Source of the DNA: Ruegeria intermedia
GTDB lineage: Bacteria; Pseudomonadota; Alphaproteobacteria; Rhodobacterales; Rhodobacteraceae
Direction of reading: 5' to 3'
Length of the DNA stretch: 64,000 bases
Assembly: GCF_900129345.1 (NCBI RefSeq)
Contig: NZ_FQVK01000001.1
Span: 62,001 to 126,000, forward strand
The number at the start of each line of letters is the position of its first letter. Position 1 is the first letter of the stretch. Shown here piece by piece: positions 5,248 through 14,820 of this stretch. The notes beneath the pieces were generated by a model that did not search any database, was not told where the DNA came from, and saw only the letters and a program-made list of their open reading frames with translations. The translations under genes and the position numbers were made by a program.

Positions 5248-5850
5248 GTGACGCGCCTGAATTTACGCGGATTCGACATCAGAAAAGGCCATCTGGACGG
5301 CGCCGCCCAGCAACGGCTGATCGACGCCTTGCGCCCGGTTCTGAAAGCCGCGCCGTTGTTTCACCCCAGCACGGCCTCGGGACGCAGGATGTCGGTGCGG
5401 ATGACCTCGGCCGGGCCGTTGGGCTGGGTGTCGGACGGCCGCGGATACCGATACCAGGGCGCGCACCCCAAAGGCATGCCCTGGCCGGACATCCCGCAGC
5501 CGATCCTGTCCATCTGGCACGAGGTGACCGGTCTGGACCGCGACCCGGACTGCTGCCTGATCAACTATTACGGCGAAGGCGCCAGGATGGGCCTGCACCA
5601 GGACAGGGACGAGGCCGATTTCTCGTGGCCGGTCGTATCGATCTCGCTGGGGGATGACGCGCTGTTCCGCATCGGCAACACCTCCCGCGGCGGCAAGACC
5701 GAATCCGTCTGGCTGAACTCGGGCGACGTGGTGATCATGGGCGGGCCGGCCCGGCTGGCCTATCACGGAATCGACCGGATCCGGTTCGGGTCGTCGCGTC
5801 TGCTGCCCAAGGGGGGCCGCATCAACCTGACCCTGCGCGTGGCGGCTTAG
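5248..5850 (+). CDS. alkB: Alpha-ketoglutarate-dependent DNA dealkylase AlkB
   Basis: A 200-residue Fe(II)/2-oxoglutarate dioxygenase that directly reverses 1-methyladenine and 3-methylcytosine damage. Iron ligands are visible as GLHQDRDE (H117, D119) and AYHGIDR (H173). The 2-oxoglutarate-binding arginines are R191 and R197 in RINLTLR. The NYYGEG nucleotide-recognition segment is at 106-111. I use the GTG at 5248, preceded by a GAGG ribosome site. A nearby ATG (5234) is out of frame and stops at once. It is divergent from dnaK, and its 3' end overlaps the next, convergent gene by 4 bp. The length is typical of a complete AlkB. Confidence 0.95.
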
Positions 5851-6668
5851 CGCCGGGCCTCCCAGCTTTTCGAGATGTGCTTGCGCGTATAGAATTCGCC
5901 CAACAGGCCGATCATCATCAGCGCGATGCCGACCCACAACGCGTATTCCCAACTGGTGTTGCGCGGAAAGTAGTTGCGAAAAATGAACCCCCGACACTGG
6001 TCGATCGCATGGAACAGCGGGTTCCAGGCAAACATCGCCAGCAAATAGCCGCCCAACGCGTTGGCCACGAACATCTTGCCGGAAAACACCATGTTCAACC
6101 GGCGGTAGACGTTGCTGAGCATCAGGGAAACCGTCGGCAGCCACGGCTTCAGCGCCATGAACACCAGCCCCACGGAACAGCCCGTGTACCAGGCCAGCAC
6201 CAGCATCGCGAAGGCACCGCCGGGGTCCTGCATCTCGATCGGGTTGACCGCCACGCTGTAGACGAACAGGATCACCAGGATCGACACGATCTGCGTGTAC
6301 AGCGCACCGAAAGCCGCCGCCAGCAGCAGCACCATCATGTTCATCGGCGAATGCAGCATCATCGGATTGTTGGTGCCCCCCAACGAGGCTATCGCGCCCA
6401 CCGCCTTGATATGGGTCATGAACAGGAAAATGCCCGACAGCAGGTACAGGATGAATTCGCCGCGGATCTTGGCCACCCGCGGCCCCATGAAGGACATGAT
6501 CAAATAGAACACGCTGGCCAGCAGCACCACCTGCACGATGTTTATCACGATGGCCAGAACGGCGTTGCTGTGCTGCGAGCGGATGTTGCGCACGACGGCG
6601 TGGAACACCAGCTCCGCCGTGGTGAAGGCGCTGCCAAGCAGGCTGCTGCTGCGCTTGTAATAGAACAC
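5847..6668 (-). CDS. ABC-2 type polysaccharide export permease (KpsM/Wzm-like)
   Basis: A 273-residue membrane protein with about six hydrophobic helices. The ABC-2 permease layout is visible: a charged N-terminal segment (RSSSLLGSAFTTAELVFHAVVR), then helices, and the conserved WNPLFHAIDQCRGFIF/YFPRNTSW stretch found in capsule and O-antigen exporters such as KpsM and Wzm. It would move a lipid-linked or finished glycan across the inner membrane. The start is a GTG at 6668. No ATP-binding partner (KpsT/Wzt) lies next to it, so the ATPase must be elsewhere. It is divergent from the cysQ-kdsB-galE-glycosyltransferase genes, which suggests that it exports their product (inference). Confidence 0.8.
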   Translation of the reverse strand: MFYYKRSSSLLGSAFTTAELVFHAVVRNIRSQHSNAVLAIVINIVQVVLLASVFYLIMSFMGPRVAKIRGEFILYLLSGIFLFMTHIKAVGAIASLGGTNNPMMLHSPMNMMVLLLAAAFGALYTQIVSILVILFVYSVAVNPIEMQDPGGAFAMLVLAWYTGCSVGLVFMALKPWLPTVSLMLSNVYRRLNMVFSGKMFVANALGGYLLAMFAWNPLFHAIDQCRGFIFRNYFPRNTSWEYALWVGIALMMIGLLGEFYTRKHISKSWEARR

Positions 6669-6715
6669 TCGAACGCTCTTTCCCGGGTTTGTTCCGACAG
6701 CCTGGCACGAATTCC

Positions 6716-6744
6716 TTGCCGTTCCGTATCCGGCACAGCATAAG
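6716..6744 (+). promoter_or_regulatory. Possible sigma70-type promoter for the cysQ glycan gene cluster
   Basis: TTGCCG (6716-6721) and CATAAG (6739-6744) are separated by 17 bases, about 45 bases before the cysQ GTG. Each hexamer matches the E. coli consensus at four of six positions, so this is only a weak prediction. Confidence 0.3.
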
Positions 6745-6790
6745 TTCGTCAGGTTTTCGGATCAACAAACCATGGAAACGGAGCATTTTT

Positions 6791-7588
6791 GTGACCTATG
6801 ACGACCTCATCCCCGTGATCAGACGCCTGGCCCTGGAAGCGGGCGACAAGATCATGGAGATCTACGATGCCGATGATTTTGACGTGAAGGTCAAATCCGA
6901 TTCCAGCCCCGTGACCGAAGCCGACGAAGCCGCCGATGCGCTGATCTCGGCCGGGCTGCGCGCCGCCTTTCCCGACATCCTGCTGGTGACCGAGGAACAG
7001 GCCGCGTCGCACAGCCAGCAGGGCGACACCTTTCTGATCGTCGATCCGCTGGACGGTACCAAGGAATTCATCAACCGGCGTGGGGATTTCACCGTGAACA
7101 TCGCGCTGGTCGAAAACGGCGTGCCCACCCGCGGCGTGGTCTATGCTCCGGCCCGCGGGCGCATGTTCTACACCCTGGCCGATGGCCGCTCGGTCGAGGA
7201 AACCGGTGCCCTGGACAAGGACGAACCGGGCACTTTGACCCCGATTTCAGTCTCTGAACCGGACAATTCGGCGCTTTTGGTGGTGGCCTCGAAATCGCAT
7301 CGCGATCAGGCCACGGATGACTACATCAACAAATACCAGGTCAAGGACAGCAAGTCGGCGGGCTCGTCGCTGAAATTCTGCCTTGTGGCCACGGGCGAGG
7401 CCGACCTCTACCCGCGTGTCGGCCGCACGATGGAGTGGGACACCGCCGCAGGCCACGCGGTGCTGGCCGGTGCCGGGGGCCATGTGGTGCGTTTCGACGA
7501 CCACCGGCCGCTGACCTACGGCAAGGAGGGCTATGCCAACCCGTTCTTCATCGCCTATGCCCCCGGCGTCGAACTCAAGGAGGCCTGA
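6791..7588 (+). CDS. cysQ: 3'(2'),5'-bisphosphate nucleotidase CysQ (PAP phosphatase)
   Basis: A 265-residue inositol-monophosphatase-fold enzyme that hydrolyses 3'-phosphoadenosine 5'-phosphate (PAP), the by-product of sulfotransferases and of sulfate assimilation. The lithium-sensitive phosphatase signatures are present: TEE (67-69), DPLDGTKEF (85-93) and EWDTAAGHA (215-223). The start is a GTG at 6791 with a GGAG ribosome site seven bases away. The longer open frame from 6689 is not supported. It overlaps the kdsB-like gene by one base (TGATG). It heads a run of sugar genes that ends in a sulfotransferase, which gives its PAP-removing role a local purpose. Confidence 0.92.
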   Translation: MTYDDLIPVIRRLALEAGDKIMEIYDADDFDVKVKSDSSPVTEADEAADALISAGLRAAFPDILLVTEEQAASHSQQGDTFLIVDPLDGTKEFINRRGDFTVNIALVENGVPTRGVVYAPARGRMFYTLADGRSVEETGALDKDEPGTLTPISVSEPDNSALLVVASKSHRDQATDDYINKYQVKDSKSAGSSLKFCLVATGEADLYPRVGRTMEWDTAAGHAVLAGAGGHVVRFDDHRPLTYGKEGYANPFFIAYAPGVELKEA

Positions 7589-8388
7589 TGTCGGTTCTGA
7601 TCGCGATCCCCGCCCGCTATGCCTCGACCCGCTATCCGGGCAAACCGCTGGTGCCGCTGACCGGCGCAACGGGAAAGCCCATGACCCTGATCGAAAGGTC
7701 CTGGCGCGCGGCCATGTCGGTCTCAGACGTCGACCGTGTGGTGGTGGCCACCGATGACGACCGCATCCGCACCGCGGCCGAGGGCTTTGGCGCCGAGGTG
7801 GTGATGACCTCGGAAAGCTGCGCCAACGGCACCGAACGCTGCGCCGAGGCGCATGACAGGCTGGGCGGTGGATACGAGATCGTGGTCAACCTGCAGGGCG
7901 ACGCCCCCCTGACCCCGCATTGGTTCATCGAGGATCTGGTCAAGGGCCTGCGCGCCGCGCCCGAGGCCGGCGTGGCCACGCCGGTGCTGCGGTGCGACGG
8001 CGAGGCGCTGAACGGGCTGCTGAACGACCGCAGGCATGGCCGGGTGGGCGGCACCACCGCCGTCTTCGCAGCCGATCACAGCGCGCTCTATTTCTCGAAG
8101 GAAGTGATCCCTTTCACCGCCGATACCTATGCCGGGTCGGACCCGACGCCGGTGTTCCACCATGTGGGCGTCTACGCCTACCGTCCCGACGCGCTGGCCG
8201 CCTATCCGGGCTGGCCGGTCGGGCCGCTGGAACGGCTCGAGGGGCTGGAACAGCTGCGGTTCATGGAAAACGGGCGCAAGGTTCTGTGTGTCGAGGTCGA
8301 GGCCAAAGGCCGCCAGTTCTGGGAGTTGAACAATCCGCAGGACGTGGCCAAGATCGAAAGCATGATGGCCGCGATGGGGTTGGAATAG
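7588..8388 (+). CDS. kdsB: 3-deoxy-manno-octulosonate cytidylyltransferase family (CMP-Kdo synthetase-like)
   Basis: A 266-residue sugar-nucleotide cytidylyltransferase, a little longer than classical KdsB (about 245-250). It begins IAIPARYASTRYPGKPL, the CTP-binding signature, and carries NLQGDAPL (101-108) in place of the usual NvQGDEPl. Family members activate Kdo with CTP for lipopolysaccharide or capsule linkers. Location among capsule-like genes suggests a KpsU-type role. It could activate a related sugar acid, since the conserved acidic residue after NLQGD is alanine here. Translation is coupled to cysQ. Confidence 0.8.
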   Translation: MSVLIAIPARYASTRYPGKPLVPLTGATGKPMTLIERSWRAAMSVSDVDRVVVATDDDRIRTAAEGFGAEVVMTSESCANGTERCAEAHDRLGGGYEIVVNLQGDAPLTPHWFIEDLVKGLRAAPEAGVATPVLRCDGEALNGLLNDRRHGRVGGTTAVFAADHSALYFSKEVIPFTADTYAGSDPTPVFHHVGVYAYRPDALAAYPGWPVGPLERLEGLEQLRFMENGRKVLCVEVEAKGRQFWELNNPQDVAKIESMMAAMGLE

Positions 8389-8461
8389 GCGCAAATTCCC
8401 CGTTCCGCGCAGGCAGCCTGGCAGCTAATCCATGACGGGCAGACATTCGGCAGGACCACGG

Positions 8462-9445
8462 ATGACCAACATACTTGTGACCGGCGGCGCCGGATATATC
8501 GGATCTCATGCCTGCAAGGCGCTGGCGCAGGCGGGCTATGTGCCCGTGACCTATGACAATCTTGTCACCGGCTGGCAGGATGCGGTGAAATTCGGCCCGT
8601 TCGAACAGGGCGATCTGCTGGACCGCGCGCGGCTGGATCAGGTCTTTGCCAAATACCAACCGGCGGCGGTGATGCATTTCGCCGCGCTCAGCCAAGTCGG
8701 CGAAGCCATGAGTGAGCCGGGTCGGTACTGGCGCAACAACGTCACCGGATCCCTGAACCTGATCGAGGCGGCCGTGGCCGCAGGCTGCCTGGATTTCGTG
8801 TTCTCGTCCACCTGCGCGACCTATGGCGACCACGACAACGTGGTGCTGGACGAAACCACGCCGCAACACCCGCTGAACGCCTATGGCGCTTCGAAACGCG
8901 CGATCGAGGACATCCTGCGCGATTTCGAAGCCGCGCACGGGCTGAACCACGTGATCTTTCGCTATTTCAACGTGGCCGGTGCCGACCCTGACGGCGACGT
9001 GGGCGAGTTTCACCGCCCCGAGACGCATCTGGTTCCGCTGCTGTTGGACGCGATCGACGGCAAGCGCGACGCGCTGACTGTCTTTGGCACCGATTACGAT
9101 ACGCCCGACGGCACCTGCATCCGCGACTATGTCCATGTCTGCGACCTGGTGGATGCGCATGTGCTGGGCCTGCGCTGGTTGGAACAGGGCAAGGGCAGCC
9201 GGGTGTTCAACCTGGGCACCGGCACCGGGTTTTCGGTCAAAGAGGTGATCGCGCAGTCGCACAGCGTGACCAATCGCGAGGTGCCCTTCAATATCGGTCC
9301 GCGCCGGCCGGGCGACTGCACCAAGCTGGTGTCAGGCTCGACCCGGGCCGAGGCCGAGCTGGGCTGGCGGCCCAAACGGTCGCGGCTGGAGGTGATGATC
9401 GGCGATGCTTGGCGTTGGCATCAGAATGGCCATTACGAGAAGTGA
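8462..9445 (+). CDS. galE: UDP-glucose 4-epimerase
   Basis: A 327-residue extended short-chain dehydrogenase that interconverts UDP-glucose and UDP-galactose (or the N-acetyl forms). The NAD motif GGAGYIGS is at residues 8-15, and the catalytic YGASK (Y141, K145) and the substrate segment IRDYVHVCDL are visible. The ATG at 8462 is chosen because the protein then starts directly with the Rossmann strand. The 73-bp gap after the kdsB-like gene has no clear terminator. It would supply galactose-type donors for the glycosyltransferases that follow. Confidence 0.93.
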   Translation: MTNILVTGGAGYIGSHACKALAQAGYVPVTYDNLVTGWQDAVKFGPFEQGDLLDRARLDQVFAKYQPAAVMHFAALSQVGEAMSEPGRYWRNNVTGSLNLIEAAVAAGCLDFVFSSTCATYGDHDNVVLDETTPQHPLNAYGASKRAIEDILRDFEAAHGLNHVIFRYFNVAGADPDGDVGEFHRPETHLVPLLLDAIDGKRDALTVFGTDYDTPDGTCIRDYVHVCDLVDAHVLGLRWLEQGKGSRVFNLGTGTGFSVKEVIAQSHSVTNREVPFNIGPRRPGDCTKLVSGSTRAEAELGWRPKRSRLEVMIGDAWRWHQNGHYEK

Positions 9446-9452
9446 TCTTGCC

Positions 9453-10496
9453 ATGGGCAAAGCTTCGACAACCGACGGAAACGCCCCGGGCTGGGTTCGC
9501 AGATACCGCCTGCGCCTGAAACGCAAGCGTCTGTTGTGGCGGTCCTTCCGCAGCCGCCACGCGTTGACGCCGGTTTCGGACAAGACCCGGCTGATCGCGC
9601 CCACCGACATTCTGGCCTTTACCACCCTGCGCAACGAGATCGAGCGCCTGCCCTGGTTCCTGCGCCACTATCGCCGGCTGGGGGTCGATCATTTCCTGAT
9701 GGTCGACAACGGCAGCGATGACGGCTCGGTCACCTATCTGCTGAACCAGCCGGACGTGTCGCTGTGGCAAACGCAGGCCAGCTATCGCCAGGCGCGGTTC
9801 GGGCTGGACTGGCTGACCTGGTTGCAGATGCGCTATGGCCATGGCCACTGGACCCTGATGGTGGATGCCGACGAGCTGCTGATCTATGCCCATCACGACA
9901 GCCGCACCCTGCATGACCTGACCCGATGGCTGGACGGAAACGGGCAGCTGGCCTTCGACGCGCTGATGCTCGACCTTTATCCCAAGGGACCGCTGGGCAG
10001 CCAGACGCACGACCCCGACACCGACCCGACCGAAACCCTGCCCTGGTTCGACCCCGGCCCCTATCGCGTGCGGCGGCAACAGCCGCTGGGCAATCTGTGG
10101 GTGCAGGGCGGGGTGCGCGACCGGGTGTTCTTTGCCGACCGGCCCGAGCGGGCGCCGACGCTGAACAAGATCCCCCTGGTGCGGTGGAACCGCCGGTTCG
10201 CCTATGTGAATTCCTGCCACTCGGCGCTGCCCCGGCATCTGAACCATGCCTATGACGGGCCGGGCGGAGAGGCGCCTTCGGGGGTGCTGCTGCACACCAA
10301 GTTCCTGCCGCAGGTCGTCGCCAAATCGCAGGAGGAAAAGCGCAGGCGCCAGCATTTTCACGATCCTGACCAATTCGGGCCATATTATGATGGCATCATC
10401 GCCGGACCCGACCTGTGGACCGCCCGTTCCGAGCGCTTTGCGGGCTGGGCGCATCTGCAAACGTTGGGGCTGATGTCTTCGGGCGGCTGGCGCTGA
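9453..10496 (+). CDS. Family 2/92-like glycosyltransferase, first of a tandem pair
   Basis: A 347-residue GT-A-type glycosyltransferase of the Glyco_tranf_2_4 kind. A basic N-terminus (RLRLKRKRLLWRSFRSR) precedes LAFTTLRNEIERLPWFLRHY, then VDNGSDDGS and the metal-binding DADEL, and further on NKIPLVRWNRRF. No signal peptide or membrane helix is evident, so it is probably cytosolic or attached to the membrane through its basic N-terminus. Start 9453 has a GAGAAG site and lies seven bases after galE. The next gene is a paralogue, roughly half identical by eye. Donor and acceptor are unknown. Confidence 0.8.
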   Translation: MGKASTTDGNAPGWVRRYRLRLKRKRLLWRSFRSRHALTPVSDKTRLIAPTDILAFTTLRNEIERLPWFLRHYRRLGVDHFLMVDNGSDDGSVTYLLNQPDVSLWQTQASYRQARFGLDWLTWLQMRYGHGHWTLMVDADELLIYAHHDSRTLHDLTRWLDGNGQLAFDALMLDLYPKGPLGSQTHDPDTDPTETLPWFDPGPYRVRRQQPLGNLWVQGGVRDRVFFADRPERAPTLNKIPLVRWNRRFAYVNSCHSALPRHLNHAYDGPGGEAPSGVLLHTKFLPQVVAKSQEEKRRRQHFHDPDQFGPYYDGIIAGPDLWTARSERFAGWAHLQTLGLMSSGGWR

Positions 10497-10645
10497 AGGG
10501 GGAAGGCCGAACCCGGAAAACCCCTGTCTGACTAACGCCATTTAAATAGATTGCCTTGCAAGGTGCGAAAGTGTCATAAAACGTCATTGCCCGGCACCAC
10601 TCTGGCCGCAGCCAGCCCCGGGCATGCTCGCGTAAGGAAAAAAGG

Positions 10646-11668
10646 TTGGGCAGTCGCGTGAGCCTTCTGGACTCTTATCGGATGAGACTGCGGCGCAAGC
10701 GCCGTCTGTTGCGTTGCGCCCGACGCCGCCGCGATCTGACACCCGTTCAGGACAAGACCCGCCAGATCCGCCCCGATGACATCCTGTTGATGAGCGTGGT
10801 GCGCAACGAAAAGATCCGCCTGCCCTGGTTCCTGTCCTACTATCGCAAGCTGGGCATCGACCACTTTCTGTTCGTGGACAATGACAGCGATGACGGCACG
10901 CTGGAATTCCTGGCGCAGCAGCCCGACGTCTCGGTCTGGCATACGGCGTCCAGCTATCGCCGGGCCACCTTCGGGATCGACTGGTCCAACCACCTGCTGC
11001 GCCGATACGCCCATGGCCATTGGGTTCTGACCGTCGACCCGGATGAGTTCTTCGTCTATCCCTTCTGCGATACGCGCCCGTTGCGCGCGCTGACCGACTG
11101 GCTGGACGGCACCGGGGTGCGCAGCTTCGGCACCATGTTGCTGGACATGTACCCCGAAGGCCCGATCCAGGACGCCCCGTATCACGAAGGTCAGGACCCG
11201 TTCGAAATCGCGCCCTGGTTCGACTCGGGCAATTATGTGATCAGCAAGAACCCCGATTACGGCAATCTCTGGATCCAGGGTGGCCCACGCGCGCGCATGT
11301 TCTTCCGGGACCGGCCGGAAAAAGCCCCGGCCCTGAACAAGATCCCGCTGGTCAGATGGGACCGGCGATATGTCTATGTCAGTTCGACCCACGCCTTGCT
11401 GCCACGTGGCCTGAACCAGGTCTATGACGAATGGGGCGGCGAAAAGGCCAGCGGTGCCCTGCTGCATGCCAAGTTGATCAACACCCTGGGCACCAAGGTG
11501 CAGGAAGAGCTGAAGCGGGGCCAGCACTATCGCGGGTCGGCGGAATACAAGGCCTATCTGGCCCAGCTGGAGAACCGGCCTGTCTTCTGGTGCAAATGGT
11601 CCGAGAAATACATCAACTGGCGCCAGCTCGAGATTCTGGGCCTGATGTCCAAGGGGAACTGGGCATGA
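10646..11668 (+). CDS. Family 2/92-like glycosyltransferase, second of a tandem pair
   Basis: A 340-residue paralogue of the preceding gene with the same layout: basic N-terminus, LMSVVRNEKIRLPWFLSYY, VDNDSDDGT, DPDEF as the metal motif, and NKIPLVRWDRRY. The start is TTG at 10646, eight bases after AAGGA. A GTG at 10658 is also possible. A 149-bp AT-richer gap separates it from its sister gene, and it overlaps the next glycosyltransferase by 4 bp (ATGA). Most sequence differences lie in the middle and C-terminal parts, consistent with a different acceptor or donor (inference). Confidence 0.8.
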   Translation: MGSRVSLLDSYRMRLRRKRRLLRCARRRRDLTPVQDKTRQIRPDDILLMSVVRNEKIRLPWFLSYYRKLGIDHFLFVDNDSDDGTLEFLAQQPDVSVWHTASSYRRATFGIDWSNHLLRRYAHGHWVLTVDPDEFFVYPFCDTRPLRALTDWLDGTGVRSFGTMLLDMYPEGPIQDAPYHEGQDPFEIAPWFDSGNYVISKNPDYGNLWIQGGPRARMFFRDRPEKAPALNKIPLVRWDRRYVYVSSTHALLPRGLNQVYDEWGGEKASGALLHAKLINTLGTKVQEELKRGQHYRGSAEYKAYLAQLENRPVFWCKWSEKYINWRQLEILGLMSKGNWA

Positions 11669-13368
11669 GCAGCAGCCTGGGCATCATCATGCTGGTCCAT
11701 ACCGCGCTGGACCGGGCCGAACAGGTGGCCCGGCACTGGACGGCGGCAGGATGTCCGGTGGTGATCCATGTCGACCGCAAGGTCGCCCGACAGGTGCATG
11801 ACGATTTCGTGTCGGCCTGCGCCGATGACCCGCTGATCGTGTTCTGTGACCGCCATGTCTGTCACTGGGGCGGCTGGGGGATCGTGGCGGCCACCCAGAC
11901 GGCCGCGGAACAGATGTTGGACCGCTTCCCGGATGTGCGTCACGTCTTTCTGTCCTCGGGCGCGTGCCTGCCGCTGCGCCCGGTGCAGGACCTGATCGAC
12001 TATCTGGCCGACCGGCCGCGCGTGGACTTCATCGAAAGCGCCACCACCGCCGATGTCAGCTGGACCGTGGGCGGGCTGGATGCCGAACGGTTCACGCTGC
12101 GGTTTCCGTTCTCGTGGCGCAAGCACCGCAAGCTGTTCGACCGGTTCGTCAAACTGCAACGCGCGGTCGGCTATCGGCGGCGCATCCCCGACGGGTTGGT
12201 GCCCCACATGGGCAGCCAGTGGTGGTGCCTGACCCGCCAGACGCTGTCGGCAATCCTGCAGGACCCGAAACGCCCGATTTACGATCGCTATTTCCGGCAT
12301 GTTTGGATTCCGGACGAAAGCTATTTCCAGACGCTGGCGCGGCTGTATTCCACCCAGATCGAAAGCCGCTCGCTGACCCTGTCGAAATTCGACTATCAGG
12401 GCCGGCCGCACATTTTCGATGACGATCACCTGCAGCTGCTGCGCCGGTCCGACTGTTTCGTCGCCCGCAAGATCTGGCCTCAGGCCGACCGGCTGTACCG
12501 GACGTTTCTGTCCGACCAGCCCGGCGCGCTGAAACCGGCCGAACCCAATCCGGGCAAGATCGACCGGGTGTTTTCCCGCGCGGTCGAGCGTCGCACCCGC
12601 GGGCGCGACGGGCTGTACATGCAAAGCCGATTTCCCCGCCACGGCAGCGAGAACGGTCTGACCGCGTTCCCCTATTCGGTGTTTCAGGGGTTTTCCGAAC
12701 TGTTCATCGATTTCGAGGACTGGCTGGCCAACACCACCGGCGCGCGGGTGCACGGCCATCTGTTCGCACCCGAGCGGGCCGAGTTCGCAGGCCGCGAAAC
12801 CCTGGTCAACGGCGCGCTCAGCGACAGCGCGACTCTGCGCGACTACAACCCGACCGCCTTTCTGTCGAACCTGATCTGGAACACCCGCGGCGAGCGGCAG
12901 TGCTTTCAGTTCGGCCCGGCCGACACGCAAAAGATCAACTGGTTCCTGGCGCGGGACAAGAACGCGCAGGTTTCGGTCGTGACCGGCGCCTGGGCGGTCC
13001 CCCTGTTCCGGTCGAACCAGAATTTCGCGGAAATCCGCGCCCAGGCCGCGCGGCTGCAGAAGATCGAAAGCGAGCAGCTCGAGGTGCTCGATTCCGTCTG
13101 GACCAAGGCACGGGTGCGGATCTGGTCGATGGCGGAATTCGTCGAATCCCCGATCGAACACCTGCAGACCGTCATCGACGAGATGGGCGTGTCGCAGCCG
13201 GGCCACCTGATCGAAGCGCCCAGGATGGTCGATCTGAGCGGGTTCGGAAAATTCCTGCAGAACCTCAAGAACCAAGGCATGCACCCCTTCCTGATGGGGG
13301 ATTTTCCGGTCGACGACGTGTTTGGCGGCCAGACCCGGCCTTATCACAAGCCCTATCTGGTGCAATGA
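11665..13368 (+). CDS. Core-2/I-branching-type glycosyltransferase with a large uncharacterised C-terminal half
   Basis: A 567-residue protein. Residues 1-290 match the core-2/I-branching beta-1,6-N-acetylglucosaminyltransferase / xylosyltransferase fold (GT14-like). Visible marks are VIHVDRK (33-39), FLSSGACLPLRP (95-106), GSQWWCLTR (183-191) and WIPDESYFQTL (214-224). Residues from about 310 to the end, starting near RGRDGLYMQSRFPRHGS, match nothing I can name. That half is soluble and aromatic-rich, with conserved-looking patches such as FIDFEDWL and FLSNLIWNTRGE. Translation is coupled to the upstream glycosyltransferase, and the sulfotransferase starts seven bases on. It probably adds a branch to the glycan, after which the sulfotransferase modifies it (inference). 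Confidence 0.8.
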   Translation: MSSSLGIIMLVHTALDRAEQVARHWTAAGCPVVIHVDRKVARQVHDDFVSACADDPLIVFCDRHVCHWGGWGIVAATQTAAEQMLDRFPDVRHVFLSSGACLPLRPVQDLIDYLADRPRVDFIESATTADVSWTVGGLDAERFTLRFPFSWRKHRKLFDRFVKLQRAVGYRRRIPDGLVPHMGSQWWCLTRQTLSAILQDPKRPIYDRYFRHVWIPDESYFQTLARLYSTQIESRSLTLSKFDYQGRPHIFDDDHLQLLRRSDCFVARKIWPQADRLYRTFLSDQPGALKPAEPNPGKIDRVFSRAVERRTRGRDGLYMQSRFPRHGSENGLTAFPYSVFQGFSELFIDFEDWLANTTGARVHGHLFAPERAEFAGRETLVNGALSDSATLRDYNPTAFLSNLIWNTRGERQCFQFGPADTQKINWFLARDKNAQVSVVTGAWAVPLFRSNQNFAEIRAQAARLQKIESEQLEVLDSVWTKARVRIWSMAEFVESPIEHLQTVIDEMGVSQPGHLIEAPRMVDLSGFGKFLQNLKNQGMHPFLMGDFPVDDVFGGQTRPYHKPYLVQ

Positions 13369-13374
13369 TCCGGA

Positions 13375-14820
13375 ATGCCCGACCCGTTTGACCATTTCAT
13401 CGTCCTGGCCGACATGCGCACCGGCTCGAACCTGCTCGAGACGCATCTGAACGCGCTGGATGGCGTGACCTGCCATGGCGAGCTGTTCAACCCGCACTTC
13501 ATCGGGTATCCCAAGGAAACCCATGTTCTGGGTTTCTCCATCGACCAGCGCGACCAAGACCCCGCAGCGGTGATCCGGGCCGTGCGCACGGCACCGGGCG
13601 GCCTGCACGGATTCCGGTTTTTCCCGTCGCACGACCCGCGCGCTCTGGCGCTGGCGCTGGACGATCCGCGCTGCGCCAAGATCGTCCTGACCCGCAACCC
13701 GCTGGACAGCTACATCTCGTTGAAGATCGCCCGCGTCACCCAGCAGTGGAAGCTGACCAACGTGAAGCAGCGGCGCGATGCGTTGGTACCCTTCGATCCG
13801 CAGGAATTCGCCGACTATCTGGACCAGCGGCAGGAGCATCGCCTTGCGGTTCTGAACCACCTGCAGCGCACCGGGCAGGTTGCCTTCCACATCGGATATG
13901 ACGACCTGTCCGATCTGGAGGTTCTGAACGGGCTGGCCGCCTGGCTGGGCGTGGCGGCACGGCTGGACCGGCTGTCCTCCGACCTCAAACCGCAGAATCC
14001 GGCGCCCGCCCTGTCCAAGGTTTCGAACCCCGAGGAACTGCAACAGGCGCTGCGCGACACCGATTGGTTCAACCTGCACCGCTCGCCGAATTTCGAACCG
14101 CGACGCGGCCCCGGCGTGCCCCGCTATGTCGCGGCCCCGGACACGCCGCTGATATACCTGCCGGTGCGCGGCGGACCCGAGCAGGCGGTGACCCGCTGGC
14201 TGGCCGCGCTGGACGGCTGCCCGCCCGACGGGCTGCTGACCCGGCGCAACCAGCAACAGGTGCGCCGTTGGATGAAGACGCGCCCGGGGCATCGCAAGTT
14301 CACCGTGCTGCGACACCCGCTGGCCCGCGCCCATGCGGTATTCTGCGACAAGATCCTGCCCACTGGGCCGGGCGGCTATGCCGCCATCCGGTCCACGCTG
14401 CGCAATCGGTTCAAACTGCCCCTTCCGGGGCAGCTGCGCGAACGGAATTATACGCTGGAACAGCATTATGCAGCCTTTGCCGCGTTTCTGGAGTTTCTGA
14501 AGCTGAACCTTGCAGGTCAGACCCCGATCCGGGTGGATGGGCTGTGGTGCAGCCAGGCGCAGGTGTTGGAGGGTATTTCCGCCTTTGCCCAACCCGACCT
14601 GATCCTGCGCGAGGACGAGATGGCAACCGCCCTGCCGGATCTGGCGCGCAGGTTTGGCCATGATGCACCGCCCGCGCCGCCCCCGTCAGAGCCGGATGCG
14701 CCCTATCGGCTGGAACAGATCTACGATGCCCGGCTCGAATCGCTGGCGGCCGATGCCTATCAGCGCGACTATGCCCAGTTCGGTTTCGGCGACTGGCAGC
14801 CGGTCATGGGCGCAGCGTGA
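13375..14820 (+). CDS. Sulfotransferase with two sulfotransferase-like domains
   Basis: A 481-residue protein. The N-terminal half resembles Stf0-type sulfotransferases: MRTGSNLL (14-21) fits the PAPS 5'-phosphosulfate loop, and LTRNPLDSYISLKIAR (105-120) fits the 3'-phosphate-binding R and S motif. The second half resembles carbohydrate sulfotransferases of the Sulfotransfer_2 group: FTVLRHPLARAH (309-320) looks like their VRDPLER motif, and the tail IYDARLESLAADAYQRDYAQFGF has their usual C-terminal pattern. Its own loop (IYLPVRGGPEQAVTRWL, 260-276) is degenerate, so it may not bind PAPS. The stop overlaps the convergent L,D-transpeptidase by 17 bp. CysQ upstream would remove the PAP it makes. 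Confidence 0.78.
   Translation: MPDPFDHFIVLADMRTGSNLLETHLNALDGVTCHGELFNPHFIGYPKETHVLGFSIDQRDQDPAAVIRAVRTAPGGLHGFRFFPSHDPRALALALDDPRCAKIVLTRNPLDSYISLKIARVTQQWKLTNVKQRRDALVPFDPQEFADYLDQRQEHRLAVLNHLQRTGQVAFHIGYDDLSDLEVLNGLAAWLGVAARLDRLSSDLKPQNPAPALSKVSNPEELQQALRDTDWFNLHRSPNFEPRRGPGVPRYVAAPDTPLIYLPVRGGPEQAVTRWLAALDGCPPDGLLTRRNQQQVRRWMKTRPGHRKFTVLRHPLARAHAVFCDKILPTGPGGYAAIRSTLRNRFKLPLPGQLRERNYTLEQHYAAFAAFLEFLKLNLAGQTPIRVDGLWCSQAQVLEGISAFAQPDLILREDEMATALPDLARRFGHDAPPAPPPSEPDAPYRLEQIYDARLESLAADAYQRDYAQFGFGDWQPVMGAA

Follow-up and report, generated by a model that had tools for sequence, protein, structure and literature searches.

The question raised by this locus is what a marine-type alphaproteobacterium makes with a compact gene set that joins glycosyltransferases, a sulfotransferase and a polysaccharide-type permease. 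The locus lies on a stretch of 64,000 nucleotides from Ruegeria intermedia (hereafter the window; positions 62001-126000 of contig 1, in a genome of 3.86 Mb and 86 contigs). All eight genes of the candidate locus, spanning 5847-14820, were confirmed by domain and profile searches of their translations: an ATP-binding cassette (ABC) permease gene, cysQ, kdsB, galE, two glycosyltransferase genes (gtA and gtB), a gene for a putative branching glycosyltransferase and a sulfotransferase gene (Table 1). A first-pass annotation, made from the sequence alone, had read them as a locus for a sulfated, branched cell-surface glycan. Our analysis points, with a probability of roughly 0.6, to the glycan-specific module of a dispersed, ABC-dependent capsule-type polysaccharide that is linked through 3-deoxy-D-manno-octulosonic acid (Kdo) and predicted to be sulfated. 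Direct support was obtained for the gene content, the co-conservation across the family Rhodobacteraceae, the sulfotransferase fold with its cofactor motifs, and the presence of export and Kdo genes in the genome.

Distribution of the locus in Rhodobacteraceae

The branching enzyme ends in a DUF5927 domain, which was used together with a sulfotransferase profile to follow the locus through 295 Rhodobacteraceae genomes, nearly all from different genera. DUF5927 was present in 246 of the 295 genomes (220 of 260 in the good-quality subset) and the sulfotransferase profile matched 248. Among the DUF5927 matches were more distant sequences, with E-values of 1e-16 to 1e-30. Both were found in 244 genomes and neither in 45, the unlisted negatives being obtained by elimination. 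The six discordant genomes carried only DUF5927 (G117 and G296) or only the sulfotransferase (G193, G208, G236 and G274), and some of the sulfotransferase matches were weak, for example those in G274, G231 and G236 with E-values of 2e-4, 3e-10 and 1.5e-12, respectively. The co-occurrence gave a Fisher p of 7e-46, calculated as if the genomes did not share ancestry. DUF5927 was present as a single copy in all 37 genomes of the genus examined, that of R. intermedia included. A sample of the class contained it in 5 of 385 genomes, all five from Rhodobacteraceae (20 of the 380 genomes without it were listed). Another 24 genomes, drawn from the class outside this family, all lacked it.

The KpsC/KpsS family PF05159, which would supply the Kdo anchor, matched 269 of the 295 family genomes. 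It was present in 245 of the 246 genomes with DUF5927, the exception being G272, which is 62% complete, as against 24 of the 49 genomes without DUF5927 (p 1e-21, again ignoring ancestry; some matches were weak, such as that in G328 with an E-value of 7e-7). The 24 genomes indicate that Kdo genes are used for other capsules as well. The genes of the locus are conserved together in relatives, one of the two points on which the first-pass annotation had staked its proposal.

Gene order and two locus architectures

Gene order was compared in named loci, which are the best 80 of 577 confirmed stretches and are biased to close relatives, with counts taken over the loci with room for the gene concerned. 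The nearest is that of Silicibacter lacuscaerulensis ITI-1157 (L063), with 90% identity over the branching enzyme. A PF13704 gene (gtB) lay directly upstream of the branching gene in 78 of 78 named loci, and the sulfotransferase gene directly downstream of it in 77 of 79. cysQ was at the locus in 71 of 72, and galE and kdsB were each at 60 of 72. Whether cysQ, the branching gene and the sulfotransferase gene always travel together had been put forward as a check; the answer is negative, with two of 79 loci lacking the sulfotransferase gene and galE and kdsB missing more often. Both loci without a sulfotransferase gene (L116 and L124) belong to two closely related Roseobacter genomes with near-identical branching sequences, and there the branching gene is followed by genes that we take to be ptsN- and hpf-like. 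Unless another site in their genomes carries a sulfotransferase gene, the two strains are natural candidates for an unsulfated version of the glycan.

Because the named loci are biased to close relatives, 20 stretches from 20 other genera were taken from the lower-scoring part of the DUF5927 matches listed (20 of 246). The triad of gtB, branching gene and sulfotransferase gene was intact in 20 of 20, and galU was present in 18. dnaK occurred in the same stretch in many of these loci, which indicates that the site is old. With the same order in the named relatives and in the stretches of 20 other genera, the gene arrangement is beyond chance.

It might be argued that cysQ, kdsB, galE and galU have housekeeping roles and neighbour an unrelated glycosyltransferase-sulfotransferase set by accident. 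cysQ and kdsB are single-copy genes, and galE, galU and kdsB come and go from locus to locus, as such an explanation would have it. Set against this, the permease gene, which had been described as divergent from cysQ, diverged from it and adjoined it in 70 of 72 named loci as well as in the window, and cysQ and the permease gene were kept with the triad in 17 of the 20 other genera (not in L165, L170 and L178). cysQ and kdsB also overlap by 4 bp. We regard chance neighbourhood as very improbable.

Upstream of the triad, three gene sets were distinguished in 70 named loci: gtA without galU (20 loci), galU with gtA (29 loci), and a GT2 gene, galU and a GT4 gene (21 loci). gtA (49 of 70) and the GT2-GT4 pair (21 of 70) were mutually exclusive and were never both missing. 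In the 20 other genera, the GT2-GT4 pair was found in nine, gtA in eight and neither in three (L163, L165 and L170); L165 and L170 also lacked the rest of the upstream part, which L163 has. This pattern suggests that gtA occupies an exchangeable slot upstream of gtB and that the family makes two glycan chemotypes, as judged from gene content. In a quick tree built from the branching protein, galU was lost from the locus in one change that defined the Ruegeria-side clade (support 98), and the exchange of gtA and the GT2-GT4 pair needed at least four changes, one of them forced by well-supported branches. Many deeper forks of this tree are open, and its marker lies inside the locus.

A fixed triad beside a changing slot would also be expected if the product of the triad were a primer or adaptor, short, conserved and sulfated, that sits on the Kdo linker and receives strain-specific capsules made by other loci. 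The 24 genomes with PF05159 and no DUF5927 fit such an adaptor. Against it, no variable capsule cluster was traced in the R. intermedia genome, and primer and repeat unit are not separated by the present evidence; we consider this explanation unlikely.

The predicted sulfotransferase and the putative branching enzyme

The predicted sulfotransferase has 481 residues, with an N-terminal domain at about residues 4-243 and a degenerate-looking C-terminal half. In all 17 sequences aligned, the motif MRTGSN (R15-T16-G17-S18-N19), E36, R107 and S115 were invariant. In sulfotransferases that use 3'-phosphoadenosine 5'-phosphosulfate (PAPS), the 3'-phosphate motif consists of an Arg followed eight residues on by a Ser. 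By this rule, R107 and S115 fit the 3'-phosphate motif, and MRTGSN fits the 5'-phosphosulfate loop. The C-terminal half contained an invariant R313-H314-P315 without the matching Ser and had weak similarity to Sulfotransfer_2 (E 0.012).

An AlphaFold model of the protein had a mean predicted local distance difference test score (pLDDT) of 78.8 and a predicted template modelling score (pTM) of 0.50. In a Foldseek search of this model, all 10 matches with E <= 0.001 were sulfotransferases, comprising tyrosylprotein sulfotransferases, Stf0, heparan 3-O-sulfotransferase and a bacterial enzyme. Their query template modelling (TM) scores were low (0.24-0.31), because only one of the two domains aligns. 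With VIA-align, 50 of 50 rows among the matches listed were PAPS sulfotransferases (Z 12.2 to 10.5), nearly all within about residues 4-244, and the best match (Z 12.2) covered residues 4-240. The nearest solved protein by profile was the lipopolysaccharide (LPS) sulfotransferase NodH (PDB 9vki, E 1e-9), which matches the N-terminal half; NodH is a one-domain protein of 264 residues, in contrast to the longer protein here with its second, degenerate half. No Pfam model scored above its cut-off (Sulfotransfer_3 14.5 against 27 bits; Sulfotransfer_2 16.2 against 22 bits), so the assignment is carried by the fold, the motifs and the NodH match. The N-terminal domain has, in the predicted model, the fold of a PAPS sulfotransferase together with the invariant cofactor motifs. 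The description of the protein as a two-domain sulfotransferase was thereby supported, and the enzyme would be expected to transfer sulfate onto a glycan.

The branching enzyme had been described as GT14-type, and Pfam agreed, its PF02485 match lying well above the cut-off of 23.4 bits. Thirteen sequences of this enzyme were 68-84% identical to the window protein (mean column identity 82%), and the motifs GSQWWCL and IPDESY were invariant in all 13. A profile of these sequences aligned weakly with xylosyltransferase 1 (E 0.0022; domain 0.043) over a region spanning both motifs. The Glu of the IPDESY-type stretch is presumably catalytic, as we take it to be in GT14 enzymes. Since GT14 includes chain-initiating xylosyltransferases as well as branching enzymes, the formation of a branch is a putative role for this protein. 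DUF5927 was also considered as a second sulfotransferase domain. This was rejected at a profile comparison probability of 1.8%, a weak comparison in which the DUF5927-side alignment was shallow (Neff 1.6).

Donor, by-product and chain genes

CysQ and GalE passed the equivalog models TIGR01331 and TIGR01179, and KdsB passed the subfamily model NF003950 and scored just under the equivalog TIGR00466 (147.6 against 155.2 bits). The genome has no second close match to CysQ, the next four being 27-31% identical, and it has a single match to KdsB. As sole copies, both are shared with housekeeping, and CysQ and KdsB probably also serve sulfate assimilation and LPS synthesis, respectively; the view that they are dedicated to the glycan was not borne out. 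GtA and GtB are paralogues, 51% identical, and share an invariant acidic motif in the alignment. Their profile found only GmaR among solved structures (E 0.17). A GT92-like galactosyltransferase identity was rejected for them, PF01697 giving only an E-value of 0.026, below cut-off, and only for GtA.

Export and Kdo genes elsewhere in the genome

The permease had no Pfam match above cut-off (ABC2_membrane at E 1.9), and among the NCBIfam models it weakly resembled VexB (43 bits) and KpsM (30 bits), far under both cut-offs. A strict signature pattern for capsule- or O-antigen-type ABC proteins had one match in the genome and none in the control. This match lies on contig C3 in a cluster of kpsT-kpsE-kdsA-phosphomannomutase, in which KdsA passed its equivalog models, KpsE was best matched by TIGR01010 (175 against a cut-off of 437.5) and KpsT by VexC (97.5 against 313). 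On contig C22, kpsS, a gene for a PF02563 export protein and kpsC adjoin one another. PF05159 scored above its cut-off there, as did PF02563 for the export protein, and KpsS was below the equivalog NF050054 (223 against 600). An in-frame TAG was present in the kpsC frame (L148:14838-14840, minus strand). For sulfate activation, one match to adenosine 5'-phosphosulfate (APS) kinase was found in the genome, on contig C17.

The permease is half a transporter, and its pairing with the ATPase encoded on C3 is predicted. A kpsT gene beside the permease gene in relatives was considered and set aside for the present, no ATPase being found in the alkB-permease gaps of the five relatives' loci inspected. 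The claim that the locus covers export therefore stands in part: plausible capsule-export partners are present in the genome, and the candidate ATPase is encoded on another contig. Likewise, the remark that this is not a standard capsule operon holds for the gene order, while the parts suit a dispersed capsule pathway with ABC export and a Kdo linkage.

The same parts could be read as making a sulfated LPS, with the enzymes decorating its core or O-chain and the permease belonging to an O-antigen-type exporter. The genome yielded no CMP-Kdo synthetase other than KdsB, and LPS needs CMP-Kdo; the solved protein closest to the sulfotransferase, NodH, carries the name of an LPS sulfotransferase; and few transferases with high conservation would suit a core oligosaccharide. 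The permease, on the other hand, is closest to the capsule permeases VexB and KpsM, relatives of KpsE, KpsS and KpsC are present, PF05159 tracks the locus through the family, and kdsB is absent from 12 of 72 loci in which the triad stays. Sulfated LPS is an improbable product, though one that keeps some weight.

Proposed pathway

If the locus is the module of a sulfated capsule-type polysaccharide, CysQ, KdsB and GalE, joined by GalU in many relatives, would handle the sugar donors and the by-product 3'-phosphoadenosine 5'-phosphate (PAP). The chain would be built by GtA and GtB, or with the GT2-GT4 pair replacing GtA. The GT14-type enzyme would add a branch, and the sulfotransferase would transfer sulfate from PAPS to a sugar in the cytoplasm. 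KpsS and KpsC of contig C22 would make a lipid-linked Kdo primer, and the permease would work with KpsT and KpsE from contig C3 and with the export protein from C22. We infer the union of the separate loci in one pathway, the sugars and linkages, the branch, the sulfation, the polymer nature of the product and its surface location from gene content and position.

Several observations weigh against this capsule pathway. The permease, KpsT, KpsE and KpsS all scored under their NCBIfam equivalog cut-offs, and the presence of CysQ and KdsB, as sole genomic copies, equally fits housekeeping. Capsule loci usually vary from strain to strain, and the strict conservation seen here contrasts with that. 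The co-occurrence p-values ignore shared ancestry, and PF05159 also occurs in 24 of the 49 genomes that lack DUF5927. DUF5927 is a domain without known function, and the model of the branching enzyme was poor (pLDDT 46). Finally, the TAG in kpsC may mean that linker synthesis is broken in this strain, or that the assembly is wrong.

Comparison with known systems

Known systems were compared from their descriptions in the cited papers. Cobetia marina KMM 1449 has a chemically proven sulfated capsule with ABC export, KpsSC, CysQ, PAPS genes and a sulfotransferase (PMC11766843). Counterparts predicted in R. intermedia are the kpsETMD-type export genes, the kpsSC genes of the Kdo primer, PAPS and CysQ genes, a sulfotransferase and glycosyltransferases. 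By description, the Cobetia genes form one region of about 70 genes that was compared among Cobetia strains (PMC11766843), in contrast to the compact module here, which is fixed beside dnaK/alkB across most of the family, has its export and Kdo genes elsewhere in the genome, contains no PAPS-synthesis genes and includes a GT14-DUF5927 enzyme. Vibrio sp. KMM 8419 likewise has a chemically proven sulfated capsule with an ABC transporter, KpsS, sulfotransferases and PAPS genes (PMC11641403). Its region is described as large, clustered and strain-variable, with second copies of cysC, cysN and cysD, and is not a family-wide fixed locus (PMC11641403). The KpsC/KpsS linker is that of the Escherichia coli group 2/3 capsule, whose KpsMTED-CS system has the same parts as predicted here, namely a KpsM-type permease, KpsT, KpsE, an export protein, KpsS and KpsC (PMC12220298). 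Unlike in E. coli, the parts in R. intermedia are spread over three loci, score under the NCBIfam equivalog cut-offs and are joined by a sulfotransferase and a branching enzyme.

The capsule of Rhodobacter capsulatus that acts as receptor for its gene transfer agent (GTA) (rcc01081-01086) is also a surface polysaccharide of the same wider group (PMC10218006). It was rejected as the same system on description alone, its different gene set including lspL1 and wza/wzb/wzc functions and being absent from strain 37b4 (PMC10218006); its product appears to be a separate polymer. Sulfated ABC-exported capsules are already known elsewhere. New features are that the locus is fixed across the family, that it includes a GT14-DUF5927 enzyme, a sulfotransferase with two domains and an exchangeable slot, and that the pathway genes are dispersed. 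Among the papers listed from the open-licence PMC literature, none described the locus or a sulfated capsule in the family, a result that does not prove absence, and the locus tags SPO0041-SPO0046 occurred in plant-topic papers only.

A sulfotransferase-bearing glycan locus with one order across genera suggests a shared polymer, which could be purified from cultured Ruegeria, would give a role to the family-restricted DUF5927 and would connect sulfate assimilation with the surface of marine bacteria that are abundant. We propose tentatively, and at somewhat less than even odds, that most family members have inherited the same surface glycan, branched and sulfated, from a common ancestor, its genes standing at a fixed chromosomal site with near-housekeeping conservation and one exchangeable transferase slot that yields two chemotypes. 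If so, bacteria that abound in the sea would carry a surface polymer that defines their family. It would be a candidate for a receptor shared by phages and gene transfer agents, or for a barrier against them, and would supply organic sulfate esters. The two chemotypes would be predictable from gene content alone.

Gene layout and antisense RNA

Table 1. Features of the glycan locus in the window
Feature	Position	Strand	Evidence
KpsM/VexB-type ABC-2 permease	5847-6668	-	NCBIfam VexB (E 4e-11) and KpsM (E 3e-7), both weak and under their cut-offs
Cis2_sRNA match, antisense inside permease gene	5952-6104	+	Rfam RF02645
cysQ, 3'(2'),5'-bisphosphate nucleotidase (predicted to remove PAP)	6791-7588	+	TIGR01331 (271.6 bits; cut-off 228.8)
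kdsB, CMP-Kdo synthetase	7585-8388	+	NF003950 (352.8 bits; cut-off 234)
galE, UDP-glucose 4-epimerase	8462-9445	+	TIGR01179 (418 bits; cut-off 262)
gtA, PF13704 glycosyltransferase	9405 (or ATG 9453)-10496	+	PF13704 (111.8 bits)
gtB, PF13704 glycosyltransferase	10646-11668	+	PF13704 (121.5 bits)
Putative branching glycosyltransferase, GT14-type with C-terminal DUF5927	11665-13368	+	PF02485 (58 bits); PF19349 (523 bits)
Two-domain sulfotransferase (predicted)	13375-14820	+	fold, PAPS motifs, NodH-like match

As shown in Table 1, the permease gene and cysQ diverge from an intergenic region at 6669-6790. ATGA overlaps of 4 bp join cysQ to kdsB and gtB to the branching gene, and the sulfotransferase gene starts 6 bp past the end of the branching gene. 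Of the gene overlaps noted earlier, these two are firm, and that of galE and gtA depends on the start at 9405 for gtA. Gaps of 73 bp and 149 bp separate kdsB from galE and gtA from gtB, respectively. A promoter scan of the locus gave 0 sigma-70-like sites (shuffles 1.9), and terminator-like sites were at shuffle level (7 against 7.4). The reading of the seven genes as one unit is upheld for the genes and their order; given these gaps and the uninformative scans, the seven genes may or may not be transcribed together.

Inside the permease gene, the Rfam model Cis2_sRNA matched in antisense, scoring 50.0 bits (gathering score 50; E 6e-9), and the match was absent from the 20-kb gathering run. 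Two relatives scored higher (59.3 bits in L063 and 57.9 bits in L083). The model overlies coding sequence, and part of its conservation may be that of the protein. In Ruegeria pomeroyi, cis2 is reported as a 153-nt RNA antisense to the ABC permease SPO0040; it was validated by reverse transcription quantitative PCR (RT-qPCR) and did not differ significantly between limitation for carbon and for nitrogen (PMC4809877). From the Rfam match, SPO0040 is probably the R. pomeroyi counterpart of the window permease. Other antisense RNAs of R. pomeroyi are cis36, opposite the sulfate adenylyltransferase gene SPO0900, and cis37, opposite the phosphomannomutase/glucomutase gene SPO0946 (PMC4809877, Table 1 of that paper); both enzymes are possible steps of the same pathway. 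Rfam searches of the stretches L156, L148, L149 and L150 gave tRNA only.

Apart from the glycan locus, a thiamine pyrophosphate (TPP) riboswitch (RF00059) was located at 1682-1786 on the minus strand of the window, just upstream of the open reading frame at 832-1686, which we take to resemble thiD.

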